DNA of 25,768 nt. Source: a virus. The translations under genes were made by a program, and so were the position numbers. The stretch is from IMG/VR virus record IMGVR_UViG_3300042890_001614, positions 1 to 25,768 of that record. One strand, written 5' to 3'. Below, one piece after another: positions 8,414 through 23,702 of this stretch (the first letter of the stretch is position 1; every line of letters starts with the position of its first letter). The notes beneath the pieces were generated by a model that did no database searches, was not told the DNA's origin, and saw only the letters and a program-made list of their open reading frames with translations.

Positions 8414-10069
8414 ATGTCAGCAATTATCACAGAAACTTTTAGACGGAATAATGCGAAATTATTCTTGGGCGACATCACTACTGGTACAAATAAATATTAC
8501 GTCGGTCTTGGTAAATCAGAAGCATGGCCAACTATTGGTGGTGTTGCTGAAACTTCATCAAACTATAATGTCCCATTACCAACGGGGACAGCTGCTGATA
8601 GAATCCAGACTCTGAACAATCTCACTTCGTTGTTGCGTGTTGAGACTACACGTTCTGGATTGGTTATTCCTAATAACTTGCTGAAGACTGGTAGATCATT
8701 TAAGGCATATTCGCCTTATGATATTAACTCATTTTATCCTACTGGAACTGGCACAATTACATATCCATGTTATTTAAATAATGGTTCTCATATTTACATC
8801 TGTCTTCGTGCTGGTGCCTCTTATGCTACTACATTGCCTGCGAATACAACTTATGGAATCGAAACCACCGCTGATGGATATACTTGGGCTTATGTTGCTC
8901 CTCTAATTGCTGGTGCAAATGCATTCAATACAGAACAGTTTATTCAGATTTCTAGTGATAAATTAACTGGAACACCTAAGACAAATGCTCTTAATGCAAC
9001 TGGTGGTCGACTATTTGGTTACACAGTGGTTAACGGTGGAACTGGTTATGTAAAAGCAAATACACGAATTTATCTTCGTGGAACAACCTCCGCTGGAGTT
9101 GATGTCAACTTGAACTTGAATCCATCAACTCCTGGTGTTGCAGATTCATATACTACATTTAATACTGGAACTGGTACAATCACCTCGATCAATCTTCCAG
9201 CATCGATTGCTAACTGGCCAACGCAAAATCTTAAAAATGCATCTATTGAAATCACTAATTTAAGTGGTGGAGTTGGTACTGGCGCGGTTGCATTACCTAA
9301 TATTGCTCCACCAGATGGCTTCGGATATTCACCATCAGAAGATCTTCCTACTTGGTATGTTGGTCTTGGTGTATCAGCTTCTGGTGACATCTCTGGTGAT
9401 GGTTTTTATATTCCTTATCGTCAAATTACTGTTCTAAAGAATCCAACGATTGTTGGTAATGTCACATTTGCCGATGCTGGCGACAGTGTTACACTACTAA
9501 GTCATGGATTTACAGCTGGTGAACAGATTGAGTTTTCAACGATTGTTAATACAACTGGTATTTCAACCAATACTACATATTATGTTGTAAATACATCTGC
9601 TGATACATTCCAGGTTGCAACATCACCTAGTGGTTCAGCTTTAACGCTAACAAATAATGGTTATGGCACACTTAAATATATCACATCTCTTCCAGCAAAT
9701 GCAAGAGCACTTCAATATTTCCAGTTGACTAGCGCATTGACAGGTGTTACTGATGTCACTGGTCTTAAAATTACAGATGCATCTACAACTCCAGCAATCC
9801 CTTATGGATTCGCTGACTATTACGATTCTACAACACGGAGATTGTATTTCCATCAGAACTTTGAGTCAAGTTTTTCATTGATAAATGCATCAGGACAATT
9901 TAAAATTGTTTCTTCTGGGGGCACACCATCTTCTGCTATAAATTATTCTGGTATCTCTTCAGGTGAGTATGTCACTAACACTGGAGAACTTATCTTTACT
10001 GAAAATCGTAAGTCTATTGCCAGAGCTTCTGCTCAAACTGAAGAAATCAAAATCGTTATCCAATTCTAA
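8414..10069 (+). CDS. 8: gp8-like baseplate wedge protein, enlarged
   Basis: Both ends match T4 gp8 (334 residues). The start ITETFRRNNAKLF...YYVGLGKSEAWP (residues 5-38) parallels the T4 segment with FRTEKMLNFY and FGRSEPW. The end ASAQTEEIKIVIQF parallels T4 MDQTEEINILFTF. Here the protein is 551 residues, so about 215 residues are added internally. One recognisable addition is a beta domain near residues 350-420 (LLSHGFTAGEQIEF, TTYYVVNTSADTFQVA). Another is a GYTVVNGGTGYVKANTRIYL strand motif near 200. In T4, gp8 is a dimeric wedge protein bound to gp7 and gp10; the extra domains probably decorate the baseplate surface. The TAA stop overlaps the next ATG (TAATG), so translation is probably coupled. 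Confidence 0.88.
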   Translation: MSAIITETFRRNNAKLFLGDITTGTNKYYVGLGKSEAWPTIGGVAETSSNYNVPLPTGTAADRIQTLNNLTSLLRVETTRSGLVIPNNLLKTGRSFKAYSPYDINSFYPTGTGTITYPCYLNNGSHIYICLRAGASYATTLPANTTYGIETTADGYTWAYVAPLIAGANAFNTEQFIQISSDKLTGTPKTNALNATGGRLFGYTVVNGGTGYVKANTRIYLRGTTSAGVDVNLNLNPSTPGVADSYTTFNTGTGTITSINLPASIANWPTQNLKNASIEITNLSGGVGTGAVALPNIAPPDGFGYSPSEDLPTWYVGLGVSASGDISGDGFYIPYRQITVLKNPTIVGNVTFADAGDSVTLLSHGFTAGEQIEFSTIVNTTGISTNTTYYVVNTSADTFQVATSPSGSALTLTNNGYGTLKYITSLPANARALQYFQLTSALTGVTDVTGLKITDASTTPAIPYGFADYYDSTTRRLYFHQNFESSFSLINASGQFKIVSSGGTPSSAINYSGISSGEYVTNTGELIFTENRKSIARASAQTEEIKIVIQF

Positions 10070-17140: not shown

Positions 17141-20100
17141 ATGATAGATACAATTATTCTTAAAAGATCTTCCACACCGAATAAAGTTCCTTTAATCTCG
17201 GATTTAGTATTTGGAGAAGTCGCGTTAAATTATGCCGACGGTAGATTATACTATAAAAATGCTAATAATAATATTAGTCAATTAAATCCAATACTCACTG
17301 GAGCGGCGTCATCTATTTCTACTGAAAACTTGACGTCATCAAGAGCATTGGTGTCAAATGCGTCCGGTAAAGTTGCAATATCAAATGTAACTTCTGATGA
17401 ATTGGGGTATTTATCTAGTGCCACTTCGAATATACAAAATCAACTGAATAACAAAGCAAACCTTGCAAACCCAACATTCTCTGGAACAGTAGGTGGTATC
17501 ACAAAGTCAATGGTTGGCCTGAGCAATGTAGACAATACGAGTGACCTCAATAAACCAATATCTACTGCAACTGCGACTGCATTAAACCTTAAAGCAAACC
17601 TTGCAAACCCAACATTCTCTGGAACAGTTAGTGGTATCACAAAGTCAATGGTTGGACTGGGCAATGTAGACAATACAAGTGACCTCAATAAACCAGTGAG
17701 TTTACTGCAGCAACAAGCATTGGACCAAAAGTCCAATAACGTTATTACAACTTTTACTCCAGTTACAACAGGTTGGTATAGAATTATTCAACACACGTCG
17801 GTTATTGGGTGTGTGTTAAGAATAACATCAAACAACGAGACTGAGGAGCGCACAACCGATGCGGAAGTAAGCATACATGTTGACAAAGATACGCGGGGCG
17901 TCATGAATCAGACACGACACAGCGCAAGAAAGGGCGGTCATGTTAGTATGCTTAGAGTTGCGCGAAATCAAAATGGTTTTGTTGTAGTCGATATTAATGT
18001 ATCAACTGGAGGAACTCAAATTACCCTTGAGGCAGAAGGACTATTGTTTCCAGGATTTGTGCCAACAATTTCTCGGTTAGTTGATCAAAACATAACCGAC
18101 AATGAAACAAATTTGGTTGATGACCTACCTCTTGCCAATGGTTTGCGATCAACTGGACAAATAGCATCGCACCTTGGATCATCCCGCGATCCTGGCACAT
18201 CCCTTTCTATTGCAGGACGTGCTGGATATTTGCATGGGTTGAATTTAACAGCAGGTAGTCCTCGATTTACTGGTGCATCTGATCACTTTCATTTGTTTTT
18301 TAACGGAGCCTCTGGTGCAGGCTCTGGTCAGAGAACTGCACAAGGTGGTAGTTCATGGAATAGTTTTCAAATGCAAAACTCAAATTCCACGCTGACCAAT
18401 GAAATTTTCCTTGGTGGTGTCAATTCATTCTTTTATGGCGAAAACGAGTTTGCACCTGAAGTTAATGGTGTAAGTATCAAATATGGCATTTCGACCGACC
18501 GAGTTGAAACAACTGGGAGTGGAGATGGGTCTGGATATCTTGGTCCAGTTGCTCCAGATTTCACAGCAGAAGTTGATTTTTGGTTTACATCTGATACTGG
18601 ATTGCCAGAAGCAAATGTAACAATTATGGCAAACTTTCCGACTGGAGTTGCCGGAATTTCAGCTGCAATTTTACCTGGAATAGTTTTGAGTAAAACTTTA
18701 ATTGCAACAGTTCCTGATGGAACTACAAACAAATGGAGACTGCGTGTAAAACTTTATGGCCTAAACGCAATTGAATGGAACAAAAGCCAGGCCACGGCAT
18801 TTTCTCCAAGTGTAGTTTGGCGTCTATCAACTACGCCAAATGCGGTGGCAGGAAACCAAAGTTTGGCGGTGCATCCTACACGAAGAGATAAAGTCATTGC
18901 TACATTTAACTCCCCTCACGGTTTATTTGTAGGACAGGTGATGGTATTGCGGCTTGCAACACAAACATGGGGCATATCAGCTGGAAGTTATTCTGGTTGT
19001 ATAACAAAAATTATATCAGCGAATTCATTTGAAATGAAGGTTGGTATTGTTAGACAAGAAAATCCGTTTGAAGCCAGTGCACGAGAGTACCTGTCAACAT
19101 ACAGTGGTCTACCATCAAACACATTGCGAGTTCCTTCGCATAACTTTAGCGATGGAGAAGCTGTTCGAGTGCGGGCAATTGGTCAACTTCAAACTGGGTT
19201 ATCTGAAAATACAACCTATTACGTGAAGAGACACTCCAGCCAGCCGGCACATTGGATTCAGCTATTTAATAATCAAGCACTAACAAACCTGGTCACCTTT
19301 ACAAGCACAAACAAATTTGGTATATATACCATTTATACTGAGGCCTACCCGGCTCCCTTAGCAGCTGACAACTGGTCAATTCATCGCGGCAATCGAGATC
19401 CTGTTCACCAGCAGACCATTTCCGATGTCGGCTGGAGAATGAACCGCAATGTATTTGGTGATCGGCGTGGACTTGCAGCCGGAACAATTGCGCAAGTCAC
19501 ACTTGGTGGGCTGTGTGATATTCCTTATTGGATAACTGGCTCATTGGCAGCTGGATTTAATTCTTCGGCTGAAGCTGACTTTTCATATTCGCTTGGAAAA
19601 GACTTGCGCAATGTAACACCAGAATCAGTTGAAATTGGCGTAGATAACTCCTTTAAATTAAGAGTAACAACAAATAAAGCATCACTAATAACAAGTGGTG
19701 TTGAGTCGCAATTAATAACATCTTTACCTACTGGAGCAACAATTTATGTTGATTCTGGTGCGGGTGTTGGTACAGATACTAGAACCTCACTTAGTAAGTA
19801 TGATTTATTCAAACCATTCGCCACTATTGGCGAAGCAATGGCTGCATCTGCTACTGGAGACACAGTCCGTGTTCGTGCTGGAACCTACTCGATCACAAGC
19901 ACGATCAATCTTAATGACGAAGGAAACCTGCATCTTGAAGAGGGCGTGGTTGTAAACTGTAATGTTGCTAACGCACCCGTTTTCACTCTATCGGTTGGTC
20001 AATCCAAAGTAATCAGTGGAGGTGGTCAGTTCAATATTTTAGGATCAACAACCAAATTCTGGCAGCAGTCTGGTGGCACAACTTCCAATCAACTGTGTTC

Positions 20101-20719
20101 GATTGAATGCTATTCAATTCTGACAATCTCCAACAGCGCAAGAATCTTTGACGTTTCAACTGGTGTGCTTGTTGTTGAAGCGGGAACTGTTTATGCTATG
20201 ACTTCAACAATCGCGTATTGTGCTGGAACCAGCAGCAATGTAAATTACAGAGTTCCTTTTACTTATTGCGCTAGAATGGTTGACATGCCAACAAACAATT
20301 CCTACGCACAGTTCAGTTGCGTTTGTCAGACGATCCAATGCTTTGGAACAATATGCTTTCGAGTTGTTGGTGGGACTTTAGGAATTGACTACGAAACCCT
20401 TGGTGATCCAGCTAATAATTGCACATTCTTTTCATTTGAATATGGGGATAGTATTGTAACTAACATAACAACTATTAGGGGTGGGCGTGCAATCACTTAT
20501 TCAAGTAATCCGTGCATAAGTTTCACAACAACAACTGGAACCAACAAGCTTTTGCGACTTTACGGCGATCCGTTTTTCTATACTGGTAGTGGAACAAATT
20601 CAATTACTGCCACTAGCGCAAGAACTGTTCTGTCGTCATCTGCAAGCTCGAATAAAACATTTAATTCGAATGTTACTATCGTAGGAAATTATCTCGTAAA
20701 TGCTGAGCTTGTTTACTAG
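17141..20719 (+). CDS. large tail fibre/spike with Mtd-like N-terminus and beta-helix-like C-terminus
   Basis: This 1192-residue mosaic protein starts with LKRSSTPNKVPLISDLVFGE and VALNYADGRLYYKNANN (residues 7-43), a pattern shared with the N-terminus of the major tropism determinant and many fibres. Two 46-residue fibre repeats follow (ANLANPTFSGTV, KSMVGLGNVDNTSDLNKPV; about 105-196). The middle (about 205-860) contains a beta domain (WYRIIQHTSVIGCVLRITSN), several unknown stretches, and a domain near 665-720 (HNFSDGEAVRV, GLSENTTYYV) related to one inside the gp8 homologue. From about 867 on, IYVDSGAGVGTDTR and PFATIGEAMAASATGDTVRV are typical of right-handed beta-helix, pectate-lyase-like folds used in receptor-binding or polysaccharide-degrading spikes. 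No catalytic residues can be assigned. It is the only gene here ending in TAG, and its middle is much GC-richer than its ends, suggesting acquired segments. Confidence 0.82.
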   Translation: MIDTIILKRSSTPNKVPLISDLVFGEVALNYADGRLYYKNANNNISQLNPILTGAASSISTENLTSSRALVSNASGKVAISNVTSDELGYLSSATSNIQNQLNNKANLANPTFSGTVGGITKSMVGLSNVDNTSDLNKPISTATATALNLKANLANPTFSGTVSGITKSMVGLGNVDNTSDLNKPVSLLQQQALDQKSNNVITTFTPVTTGWYRIIQHTSVIGCVLRITSNNETEERTTDAEVSIHVDKDTRGVMNQTRHSARKGGHVSMLRVARNQNGFVVVDINVSTGGTQITLEAEGLLFPGFVPTISRLVDQNITDNETNLVDDLPLANGLRSTGQIASHLGSSRDPGTSLSIAGRAGYLHGLNLTAGSPRFTGASDHFHLFFNGASGAGSGQRTAQGGSSWNSFQMQNSNSTLTNEIFLGGVNSFFYGENEFAPEVNGVSIKYGISTDRVETTGSGDGSGYLGPVAPDFTAEVDFWFTSDTGLPEANVTIMANFPTGVAGISAAILPGIVLSKTLIATVPDGTTNKWRLRVKLYGLNAIEWNKSQATAFSPSVVWRLSTTPNAVAGNQSLAVHPTRRDKVIATFNSPHGLFVGQVMVLRLATQTWGISAGSYSGCITKIISANSFEMKVGIVRQENPFEASAREYLSTYSGLPSNTLRVPSHNFSDGEAVRVRAIGQLQTGLSENTTYYVKRHSSQPAHWIQLFNNQALTNLVTFTSTNKFGIYTIYTEAYPAPLAADNWSIHRGNRDPVHQQTISDVGWRMNRNVFGDRRGLAAGTIAQVTLGGLCDIPYWITGSLAAGFNSSAEADFSYSLGKDLRNVTPESVEIGVDNSFKLRVTTNKASLITSGVESQLITSLPTGATIYVDSGAGVGTDTRTSLSKYDLFKPFATIGEAMAASATGDTVRVRAGTYSITSTINLNDEGNLHLEEGVVVNCNVANAPVFTLSVGQSKVISGGGQFNILGSTTKFWQQSGGTTSNQLCSIECYSILTISNSARIFDVSTGVLVVEAGTVYAMTSTIAYCAGTSSNVNYRVPFTYCARMVDMPTNNSYAQFSCVCQTIQCFGTICFRVVGGTLGIDYETLGDPANNCTFFSFEYGDSIVTNITTIRGGRAITYSSNPCISFTTTTGTNKLLRLYGDPFFYTGSGTNSITATSARTVLSSSASSNKTFNSNVTIVGNYLVNAELVY
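17456..17698 (+). repeat. two 138-bp fibre repeats
   Basis: Two copies at an offset of 138 bases encode 46-residue units starting ANLANPTFSGTV and ending near NVDNTSDLNKP. The copies differ at only a few bases (for example GGCCTGAGC against GGACTGGGC). This is the common VGLGNVDNTSD-type phage fibre repeat. Confidence 0.88.
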
Positions 20720-20807: not shown

Positions 20808-20815
20808 TATAAATA
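20808..20815 (+). promoter_or_regulatory. T4-type late promoter box, 6 bases from ATG
   Basis: An exact TATAAATA lies in the 102-base gap between the large fibre and the 153-residue gene, 6 bases before the ATG at 20822. The predicted T4-style start is at about 20821, giving a leader of one base or none. The same gap holds two TATAAT sequences (20778-20783 and 20799-20804), which could be host-type -10 boxes but have no clear -35 partner. Confidence 0.6.
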
Positions 20816-20821
20816 GCACTA

Positions 20822-21283
20822 ATGGATAATATCTCCGTCAAACTTGCACCACAGAATCCTTTACGGGTCAATGTTTCTCAAAATCAAACAGGGCAAGTGA
20901 ATACTAATACTCGGCATACAGTATCATTGACAACTGATACTCTCGTATATGAAGAGTATGAATTGTCCAATATCACTGCAGCCAAAACTTATTCATTATT
21001 GAAGGTTTATACTTCGGCTCCGTGCTGGATAACTTTATACAATACCGATGCTGCTAGAACTGCTGACCTTACTCGTACAATTAACGATGATCCATTAGTA
21101 GGAAGCGGGGTGATTGCTGAGTTTATCACCACTGATGCTCAGACACAATACTTAACACCAGCCGTCATCGGATTCAATGATGAAAACCCAGTTACAAATG
21201 TTATCTTTGTAAAAGTAGTTAATACTGACAATACCGCTCGTAGTATCAATTTTAGTTTAACTTACTTAACCTTAGAAGTATAA
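20822..21283 (+). CDS. small structural protein upstream of the protease, unknown function
   Basis: This 153-residue protein is not one I can name. It begins with a polar, extended segment (VKLAPQNPLRVNVSQNQTGQ) and continues as a likely beta-sandwich (YEEYELSNITAAKTYSLLKV, APCWITLYNTDAARTADLTR, then VTNVIFVKVVNTD and INFSLTYLTLEV). There is no signal peptide or membrane segment. Proteins of this type occur among particle proteins of T4-like aquatic phages. Its stop is 1 base before the protease ATG, so the two are almost certainly translated together. It might anchor or regulate the protease on the particle; that is inference from position. Confidence 0.7.
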   Translation: MDNISVKLAPQNPLRVNVSQNQTGQVNTNTRHTVSLTTDTLVYEEYELSNITAAKTYSLLKVYTSAPCWITLYNTDAARTADLTRTINDDPLVGSGVIAEFITTDAQTQYLTPAVIGFNDENPVTNVIFVKVVNTDNTARSINFSLTYLTLEV

Positions 21284-21284
21284 C

Positions 21285-23573
21285 ATGAGTAATTTTTTTG
21301 GTATTCCTGGCCCTGATCAAAGAGAGTATATCGTGACCCTTCATTTTATGAAGGATTCCGATTCTTTCTATGAAGACATGGAAACTCCTGGAGGTAACTT
21401 ATACATACCAGATCGCGTAGTAGAATGCACGAATCGTAGAACGATTAGCCGCAACACTCATTACATGTTGACGTATGACGAGGCCAAAACGATATCACAT
21501 GATCTTCGTGTTCTAGCAGTAGCAATTGGCAAAGAAGGACTTAAAGAATTAGGTGTAAAGACTATAACGAATGGGTATAGTCAACAATCTGAGTATTTTA
21601 GTAAAGAGAACATCAATGATGCAAATAATATAAATTGGGGCTTCATTCGATCTTCATCTAAAACACCAATTCAAAATTGGGGTAGTGAAGGAATTCCTGT
21701 TTTATCTTCTGAATTTAAAGTTGATTCTTCTGGTAAGAACGTAGATGTATTCATTGCCGACGATGGAATGCCATTTCCGCATACTAAAGAATATATGCAG
21801 AATGCCGATGGCTCAGGTTTTACTCGTATGGTTCAGCGTAATTGGGCAACGCATCAGCATGAGAGTAATCCAACATATAATGGAAGTTACTTTGATACAA
21901 TTATAAGTGAAGACATCAATAATGTAACGCAATTTCCTTCATTTCAGGATCATGCTGCACACGTTATGGGTACTGCTGCCGGCAATACTCAAGGATGGGC
22001 GAAAGATGCAAATATATATAATCTGTTTGTGTTAGAACTAAATGAATACGTAGATTTAGTTCGGCTATTTCATAGAGATAAACCAATAAATCCCAAAACA
22101 GGATTTAAAAATCCAACTATCATGAATAATAGTTGGAGCGATGTTTTATATGCGAATTCTAAACAAATATCTAAAGTTCATTTTAGAGGTACTGATTACT
22201 TTCCATCCGGTGGTTCTGGCCCATATAATTGGATTTGGGATGATGCGGTGCTTGCATCGTTTTTGATAAATCCATATTTTGTAAATGGTAATCCTGAAAA
22301 ATATTTCGATGTACCTTGGGTTGAGGGCAAAGAATGGTTAGCTGCAGATTTCATTGATATGATGAATGAAGGGGTTGTAGTATGCGCATCAGCAGGAAAC
22401 ACAAGTTGGTACATAGATAAAATTGGTGGTCCAGATTATGATAATTATTTTACAACTCCTCAATCCGTAAGTAATGTATATTATAATAGAGGAGCTGTTC
22501 CGCATGGAGTAGATGGTGGTAGTGAAGATAACCGAGTCATATGTGTAGGTTCATTAGGAAATCATGCCGGTGCAAGTGATTATTATAATCACGGATCTTT
22601 AGGGGCCACGGCAATATCGGAGATTGATTATAAGGCAGAATATACTAATTTTGGCCCTCGTATTGACGTATATGCTCCGGGTTCATCTATTATGAGTATT
22701 CATAAAGTCTATCCTGATCAGACATGGGGATATGGATTAGTTGGTGTATATGACAATCGTTCACCATTTAATGATCATATAAACGGGGTGTGTATAGCCA
22801 GAGGTACAAGTATGGCTACGCCGCAAGTAACGGGAATGCTGGCCTGTCTTGCCGAAAAATACCCACGAATGAATCAGAGAATTGCCAGAGAATGGATTAA
22901 AAACATTTCGTTGCCTACTCTTGCAAGTACAAGTGGTGGTGCAGGAACTGATCCGACTGATGCAGGATTTGGAGTGAGTGCGGAAAGCGCAAACAATATA
23001 ATGTTCAATAAATCAGAAAGAAATACTTCTTATGACGAAGGTAGTCAATTTCTTTCAGTTACTTATCCAAAGACATCTAAATGGATTCGGCCAAGTTCAG
23101 GAGTAGCATATCCAAGAGTCCAAAGATTACATAATCGTAATCATACAACTGAAATATCATTATCTTGTTCGCATACTGTAGTAAGTAGAGGAGAAACTTT
23201 TTACGTAACGCTTAGCAGTAATACCAATTTAAGTGAATTAAAAGTTCCATATATCATTACTGCGATTCCGGTTGAAGTTGAAGGCAACCTATACAACTTC
23301 AATTTTGATATGCAATCTGATTTTTTTACTCCTGATGACTATGCATTTTATTCTGCTAGTGTTGTTCCGACACTCAAAAATAATCAGGCAGACATTAGCA
23401 TTGATCCGACCGGTGTCATTACTTTAGAAAATGGAGAATATGTTCTTCCAATAACCGTAACTAATAATAGTATCAGCGCGGCAAGTAATAAGCATCTTAA
23501 TTTTCGATTAGATTATTTTGGAACTCCATCGATTACGGTTCTTCTAAAATATGATGATAGTATATTTACCTAA
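21285..23573 (+). CDS. subtilisin-like serine protease (S8 family) with inhibitory-type prodomain
   Basis: This 762-residue protein carries the complete subtilase catalytic set. Asp159 lies in VFIADDG, His223 in DHAAHVMGTAAG, the oxyanion Asn372 in CASAGN, and Ser509 in the diagnostic GTSMATPQVTG. Residues 15-85 (YIVTLHF, then HYMLTYDEAKTISHDLRVLA at 59-78) resemble the I9 prodomain that keeps subtilases inactive until cleaved. Residues from about 615 are beta-rich, Ig-like, and could attach it to the particle. There is no signal peptide, so delivery with the virion or by lysis is more likely than secretion by the host. The usual HGTH around the catalytic histidine is HAAH here. It is joined to the 153-residue gene and likely expressed from the late box at 20808. 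Possible roles are maturation of fibres or cleavage of host surface proteins. Family assignment is firm; the role is inferred. Confidence 0.92.
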   Translation: MSNFFGIPGPDQREYIVTLHFMKDSDSFYEDMETPGGNLYIPDRVVECTNRRTISRNTHYMLTYDEAKTISHDLRVLAVAIGKEGLKELGVKTITNGYSQQSEYFSKENINDANNINWGFIRSSSKTPIQNWGSEGIPVLSSEFKVDSSGKNVDVFIADDGMPFPHTKEYMQNADGSGFTRMVQRNWATHQHESNPTYNGSYFDTIISEDINNVTQFPSFQDHAAHVMGTAAGNTQGWAKDANIYNLFVLELNEYVDLVRLFHRDKPINPKTGFKNPTIMNNSWSDVLYANSKQISKVHFRGTDYFPSGGSGPYNWIWDDAVLASFLINPYFVNGNPEKYFDVPWVEGKEWLAADFIDMMNEGVVVCASAGNTSWYIDKIGGPDYDNYFTTPQSVSNVYYNRGAVPHGVDGGSEDNRVICVGSLGNHAGASDYYNHGSLGATAISEIDYKAEYTNFGPRIDVYAPGSSIMSIHKVYPDQTWGYGLVGVYDNRSPFNDHINGVCIARGTSMATPQVTGMLACLAEKYPRMNQRIAREWIKNISLPTLASTSGGAGTDPTDAGFGVSAESANNIMFNKSERNTSYDEGSQFLSVTYPKTSKWIRPSSGVAYPRVQRLHNRNHTTEISLSCSHTVVSRGETFYVTLSSNTNLSELKVPYIITAIPVEVEGNLYNFNFDMQSDFFTPDDYAFYSASVVPTLKNNQADISIDPTGVITLENGEYVLPITVTNNSISAASNKHLNFRLDYFGTPSITVLLKYDDSIFT

Positions 23574-23694: not shown

Positions 23695-23702
23695 TATAAA
23701 TA
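23695..23702 (+). promoter_or_regulatory. T4-type late promoter box upstream of the spike-base-like gene
   Basis: An exact TATAAATA lies 9 bases before the ATG at 23712, immediately after an overlapping AATAAATA (23686-23693). T4 geometry predicts a start near 23708 and a 4-base leader. Confidence 0.6.

Follow-up and report, generated by a model that had tools for sequence, protein, structure and literature searches.

Genomic setting of the two genes

The window, by which we mean the whole 25,768 nt stretch of IMG/VR virus record IMGVR_UViG_3300042890_001614 that was analysed, runs through T4-like baseplate wedge genes at 253-2115 and 8414-10069 and, between these and the downstream tail genes, through large structural and fibre genes, a gene for a 153-residue protein and a gene for a subtilase (Table 1), whose ATG sits one nucleotide past the preceding stop codon. 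A second contig (L002) derives from the same virus, being 100% identical over the overlap, and from its ORFs is read to continue into neck, terminase and sheath genes. An earlier note on this DNA had placed the protease among fibre genes, and the PHROG matches, the neighbourhood and this continuation all agree. The nearest named terminase, at 61%, belongs to Phage C48C1, filed under Kyanoviridae, which has fibre genes at the corresponding place and gave no match in the subtilase search. The virus is a T4-like virus of aquatic bacteria.

Table 1. Features of the adaptor-subtilase locus (window coordinates)
Feature	Position	Strand	Basis
T4-type late-promoter-like box TATAAATA before adaptor gene	20808..20815	+	Sequence match
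153-aa adaptor ('tip' domain) gene	20822..21283	+	phrog_15343 / C-terminus of phrog_9627; homology to relatives' upstream gene
Predicted jelly-roll tip domain, residues 31-152	20912..21277	+	AF2 mean pLDDT 85.9, eight strands
Subtilase gene, 762 aa	21285..23573	+	PF00082 E 1.3e-18; phrog_9158 E 4.8e-82
Putative I9-like prodomain, residues 13-82	21321..21530	+	Model topology; weak Pfam I9 in 7/22 relatives; hhalign
S8 catalytic domain, about residues 116-545	21630..22919	+	Pfam 151-542; PDB fold match E 5e-14
Catalytic Asp159	21759..21761	+	40/40 aligned sequences
Catalytic His223	21951..21953	+	40/40 aligned sequences
Oxyanion-hole Asn372	22398..22400	+	40/40 aligned sequences
Nucleophile Ser509	22809..22811	+	40/40 aligned sequences
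RPSSGVAYPR tail motif, residues 602-611, proposed docking tag	23088..23117	+	Conservation; motif-tip co-occurrence
Beta-rich C-terminal extension, residues 622-762	23148..23570	+	AF2 model
Box TATAAATA before following tail gene (23712); likely end of two-gene unit	23695..23702	+	Sequence match

The late-promoter-like sequence TATAAATA occurs four times on the plus strand of the window (8387, 16733, 20808 and 23695), each copy no more than about 20 nt before a gene start; its overall count is not above chance (five on both strands versus 2.8), but where the copies stand is informative. Since two of these boxes bracket the adaptor and subtilase genes, the pair looks like a single late unit of two genes. 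Several of the spacings to the gene starts are short enough that the transcripts would have almost no leader.

The adaptor is a separate 153-residue protein, and the preceding fibre gene (17141-20719) ends 102 nt upstream of it. That gene encodes a 1192-residue fibre with KSMVGLxNVDNTSD repeats which, towards its C-terminal end, reads like a beta-helix (tailspike-like) region.

The subtilase

The 762-residue protein is a complete member of peptidase family S8, as the earlier note had recognized. Pfam PF00082 (Peptidase_S8) scores 67.7 bits, three times the curated cut-off of 21.8, and phrog_9158 matches residues 12-620, covering both the prodomain and the catalytic domain. The Asp-His-Ser triad keeps the S8 order with each residue in its proper S8 context (VFIADDG at Asp159, DHAAHVMGT at His223, RGTSMATP at Ser509), and Asn372 lies within CASAGN. 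These four residues, all located where the note had put them, are invariant in an alignment of the window subtilase with 39 relatives at 32-44% identity, and dN/dS values of 0.05-0.42 between related subtilase gene pairs show purifying selection. The AF2 model of the whole protein (mean pLDDT 73.8) matches proteinase-K-type structures in the PDB with a TMt of about 0.78-0.79, so that a subtilisin fold is predicted. Triad order, motifs, fold and prodomain topology are thus like those of the subtilisin/proteinase K family (MEROPS S8A), whereas the phage catalytic domain is enlarged by insertions, no signal peptide is visible (judged from the N-terminal sequence only), as the earlier note had said, and within the sequences compared here the tail motif and the beta domain near the C-terminus are peculiar to the phage proteins. 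In one set of relatives (L031-L035, e.g. L035:3940-6525, and L144:5995-8562) an in-frame insert of ~300 residues lies just past the catalytic Asp; it matches no Rfam, Pfam or PHROG family, so that neither an intein nor an intron is supported.

The proposal of an I9 inhibitor prodomain held for the topology but found no Pfam I9 match in the window protein itself. In the model, residues 13-81 take up the beta-alpha-beta-beta-alpha-beta order of I9 (strands 13-19, 48-51, 57-62 and 76-81; helices 22-33 and 64-71). Among relatives, I9 is the most frequent Pfam match (7 of 22, best E 0.0096). An hhalign alignment of the C-terminal I9 motif scores 20.4, versus at most 12.1 in 30 column-shuffled controls, at a probability of only 7%; there is thus some support for I9 from sequence, but it is weak. 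A search of the PDB with the prodomain profile gave chance-level matches only. Mean pairwise identity across the 40 sequences is 0.54 in the prodomain and 0.43 in the catalytic domain, the linker between them (residues 84-115) being poorly conserved at 0.28. When cellular genomes were searched for prodomain relatives, only seven metagenome-bin contigs were recovered, and since all seven carry a tip gene directly upstream they are probably phage DNA; these cassettes (L142-L148) had been binned as Bacteroidetes, Rhodobacteraceae, Euryarchaeota, Gammaproteobacteria and Planctomycetota.

Beyond the catalytic domain, residues 580-620 are predicted to be disordered and contain the tail motif, in which R602, P610 and R611 are invariant in the alignment with relatives. 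The tails of tip-adjacent proteases are variants of R-P-[TS]-[ST]-G-x-x-[YFW]-P-R-x-[RK]-I-x-R, mostly 6-9 residues before the end of the protein; in the window the motif is followed by a beta domain. The model bears out the note's description of this C-terminal extension as beta-rich, and a piece of it is common to four relatives (L116, L100, L137 and L084).

The 153-residue protein

No Pfam family matched the 153-residue protein. Its affinities emerged from comparison with the C-termini of the upstream genes in relatives with a stand-alone subtilase, to which it is related with HMM E-values of 1e-38 to 1e-69. A domain of ~120 residues that is free-standing in the window lies, in relatives, at the C-terminus of a longer protein that is fibre-like (collagen-like or of another type). 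Annotations of that protein include 'tail fiber' and 'baseplate wedge subunit and tail pin', and the gene that ends in this domain sits directly before the stand-alone subtilase gene, usually 1 nt away. In structure comparisons the closest viral models are the C-termini of cyanophage tail-fibre proteins; the best matches include tail-fibre and neighbouring uncharacterized proteins of S-CAM1, S-RSM4, S-SCSM1 and S-H9-1, the same proteins as were found in the sequence search. The PDB returned generic jelly rolls (a Haloferax virus turret at 2e-4, plant virus coats, Tk-SP and Kex2), matches too weak to name an ancestor. The 153-residue protein probably seats the subtilase on the tip of a tail fibre, although its separateness from any fibre in the window counts against such a position.

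Partners of the tip domain

The pairing was also approached from the side of the tip, by searching IMG/VR with the tip domain alone, with no adjacency rule built in, and assigning the gene that follows the tip to a class at every locus collected. The profile was built without tip-less upstream proteins, since these gave spurious matches. In nearly all of the first 80 tip-only loci a subtilase came next. The 219 non-redundant downstream partners comprise 162 S8 proteins (152 of the phrog_9158 type and 10 divergent ones as in S-CAM1), 47 members of a family that we label NT from its NTGW motif, seven S53 proteins, one alpha/beta-hydrolase and two others; these proportions are biased, because the tip seeds came from tips beside such partners and loci first fetched via the subtilase are included. 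The gap between tip gene and partner is exactly 1 nt in 146 of 225 cases. NT proteins are ~600-775 residues long and form an unrelated family. The alpha/beta-hydrolase matches Pfam BD-FAE at 5.7e-12 and the S53 partner L109 matches kumamolisin at 8.8e-31; enzymes of the kumamolisin/sedolisin type (MEROPS S53) pair with this tip domain in other phages and are not what the window encodes. Among the S53 partners (L109:6377-7651, L127:6413-7669, L207:4187-5458 and L150:3340-4584), the phage protein starts about 30 residues before the mature-enzyme match and so appears to be without the long S53 prodomain. Eighteen loci contain two adaptor genes, each before another partner class; S-H9-1 and ACG-2014i have two partner types and two adaptor genes, one ahead of each partner.

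The tail motif follows the tip domain closely. Counted with a relaxed pattern (R, up to 25 residues, [YWF]PR), as a stricter one misses degenerate tails, it is present in 141 of 141 tip-adjacent proteases and in none of seven tip-less ones (complete, non-redundant sequences; Fisher 4e-12, a value that overstates independence as the sequences are related). The tip-less group is clustered on a quick tree, with four label changes of which at least two are forced. The motif is found as well in the S53 and alpha/beta-hydrolase partners, and near the C-terminus of eight of 395 other long ORFs, seven of which turned out to be further tip partners. It occurs in only one of 42 NT partners, which the adaptor must therefore hold differently. 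The simplest reading of these patterns is that motif and tip domain are two halves of an attachment that may be dispensed with once the enzyme is fused to a structural part.

Relatives in cyanophages

Proteins annotated in cyanophages as 'subtilisin-like serine protease' (phrog_9158; S-H38, S-WAM2, Sf-FR1 and S-RSM4) belong to the same family as the window subtilase, with 24-36% identity, shared catalytic positions and adjoining tail-fibre genes, as does PSSM2_297 of P-SSM2, noted as 'contains PF00082 domain'. The claim that T4 has nothing like this enzyme stands within our search, but T4-like cyanophages do have it and it is already annotated there; in the literature searched, a function is described for none of these cyanophage proteins. 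The window version differs in its stand-alone 153-residue tip protein and its longer C-terminal extension, and the P-SSM2, Sf-CH8 and S-T4 types, unlike that of the window, have neither tip gene nor tail motif. Such tip-less subtilases are often the N-terminal part of proteins of 1054-2493 residues that carry Calx-beta-like, LamG, LCCL-like, SGNH-like or other regions, and on the quick tree one fused lineage (L019, L021 and L027) branches inside a larger group that holds tip-associated sequences. In S-TIM54 an S8 domain lies inside a 2140-residue protein annotated as virion structural. That gene (L056:6039-12458; 6423 nt) and SBM3_00202 of S-BM3 (L051:1-2349; 7947 nt) are giant genes outside the tip cassette, their S8 domains being called by annotation or profile match.

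Indirect support for the note's suggestion of a protease on the particle comes from S-SCSM1, for which 45 virion proteins were identified by mass spectrometry (PMC9602691). The fused protein SSCSM1_228, 1411 residues long with the homologue as its N-terminal part, is flagged 'virion protein' in the record, as are SSCSM1_231, which has a tip domain, and the NT partner of the latter, SSCSM1_232. The record flags 48 proteins versus the 45 reported and is not exactly the mass-spectrometry list; since it includes non-structural proteins that the paper names and omits several predicted structural ones, the flag very probably reflects that experiment, which is not proof gene by gene. The authors of that study caution that some cyanophage enzymes may be mere carry-over in virion preparations (PMC9602691). 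Neither the S-CREM1 paper, with its 14 virion proteins, nor that on S-CREM2 mentions the protease.

Discussion

We consider it rather probable that the two-gene late unit makes a virion-borne, exchangeable protease which is docked on a fibre-tip adaptor and cuts protein on the host surface. The 153-residue protein would be the jelly-roll adaptor. The subtilase would fold as a zymogen with its I9-like prodomain, which would keep the enzyme quiet until folded, and would probably process itself. Attachment to the adaptor through the flexible RPxSGxxYPR tail would then place the catalytic domain at the tip of a short tail fibre, where it could cut an outer-membrane, S-layer or pilus-like protein, either opening the way to the envelope or freeing the phage after a failed contact. 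That more than 150 distinct relatives of the gene pair were found, always side by side, suggests that these phages probably use the protease on the host surface, and host-surface digestion is the most likely use of the enzyme.

The main rival, which we regard as fairly unlikely, is a fibre-maturation protease that cuts the tip domain off its fibre or trims other fibres during assembly, after the model of the C-terminal chaperone domain that is removed in some phage fibres. Head assembly in T4-like phages already involves a protease, and this precedent, the strict adjacency of tip domain and protease and the late two-gene unit all fit such a role. The rival is weakened, however, because the same tip also precedes partners that are not proteases (47 NT and one alpha/beta-hydrolase); moreover, the tip of the window is already a separate protein, and those subtilases that are fused to large repeat regions resemble components of a finished particle. 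The earlier note's idea that the 153-residue protein is itself a substrate is not supported for a like reason, as this protein is the fibre-tip domain found beside such enzymes whether or not they are proteases.

A structural role, with the S8 fold serving mainly as a binding module (an adhesin) and catalysis of little weight, seems to us unlikely. Non-proteolytic use of S8 exists, as in PCSK9; the prodomain is better conserved than the catalytic domain, and the S-CAM1-type partner seems by eye to have Glu at the expected catalytic Asp. Against this, the four catalytic positions do not vary among 40 divergent sequences, and the other partners include further hydrolase folds, S53 and alpha/beta-hydrolase among them. 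It is very unlikely that the enzyme acts off the particle, on debris after lysis or on host proteins inside the cell: the lack of a secretion signal would suit that role, as would carry-over of enzymes into virion preparations (PMC9602691), but the subtilase pairs with a fibre-tip domain, its relatives are fused to large structural regions, and the gene lies among fibre genes after a late-promoter-like box.

By arrangement, the closest known parallel to the adaptor and subtilase appears to be the gp37-gp38 fibre tip of T-even phages, in which the tip adhesin is encoded just after the distal fibre gene and can be exchanged from one phage to another. In both cases the partner gene immediately follows a gene whose product ends with a fibre-tip domain. 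The differences are that the tip domain of the window is a 153-residue gene of its own, that a protease or other hydrolase replaces the adhesin, and that attachment seems to be via a C-terminal peptide motif; the likeness is one of gene arrangement and mode of working, and no sequence kinship to gp38 is claimed. A broader scheme, which we put forward tentatively as possible and close to an even call, is that T4-like phages own a fibre-tip cartridge system, in which a jelly-roll adaptor receives exchangeable hydrolases with RPxSGxxYPR tails (S8, S53 and alpha/beta-hydrolase), a tail-less partner family uses a second copy of the adaptor, and enzymes are swapped or stacked to breach host surface layers.

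The subtilase gene family is already known and annotated in cyanophages, yet unexplained, and no paper on this family or on the tip domain was found in the literature searched; within the reach of that search, there is no description of the pairing of adaptor and enzyme, of the tail motif or of the exchange between catalytic folds. Among the enzymes that virions carry to gain access to the cell, the best known are polysaccharide depolymerases and peptidoglycan hydrolases. If fibre-tip proteases are indeed widespread, surface protein would be a target of many marine and freshwater T4-like phages, and a gene that is annotated but unexplained in cyanophages such as P-SSM2 would acquire a function, while adaptor and tail motif would provide a simple docking rule for recognizing further tip enzymes.

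Two further variations were seen among the tip partners. In seven loci (L091, L111, L118, L122, L129, L161 and L198) tandem subtilase genes lie behind one tip gene; the second also has the tail motif in six of the seven, and in L129 it belongs to the tip-less, repeat-bearing type. Cupredoxin-like domains with CxxHxxM are present at the C-termini of six subtilases (L057, L059, L085, L139, L132 and L053; Pfam Copper-bind up to 8.8e-8), with a weaker cupredoxin-like match in an NT-type partner (L050:5917-6276).
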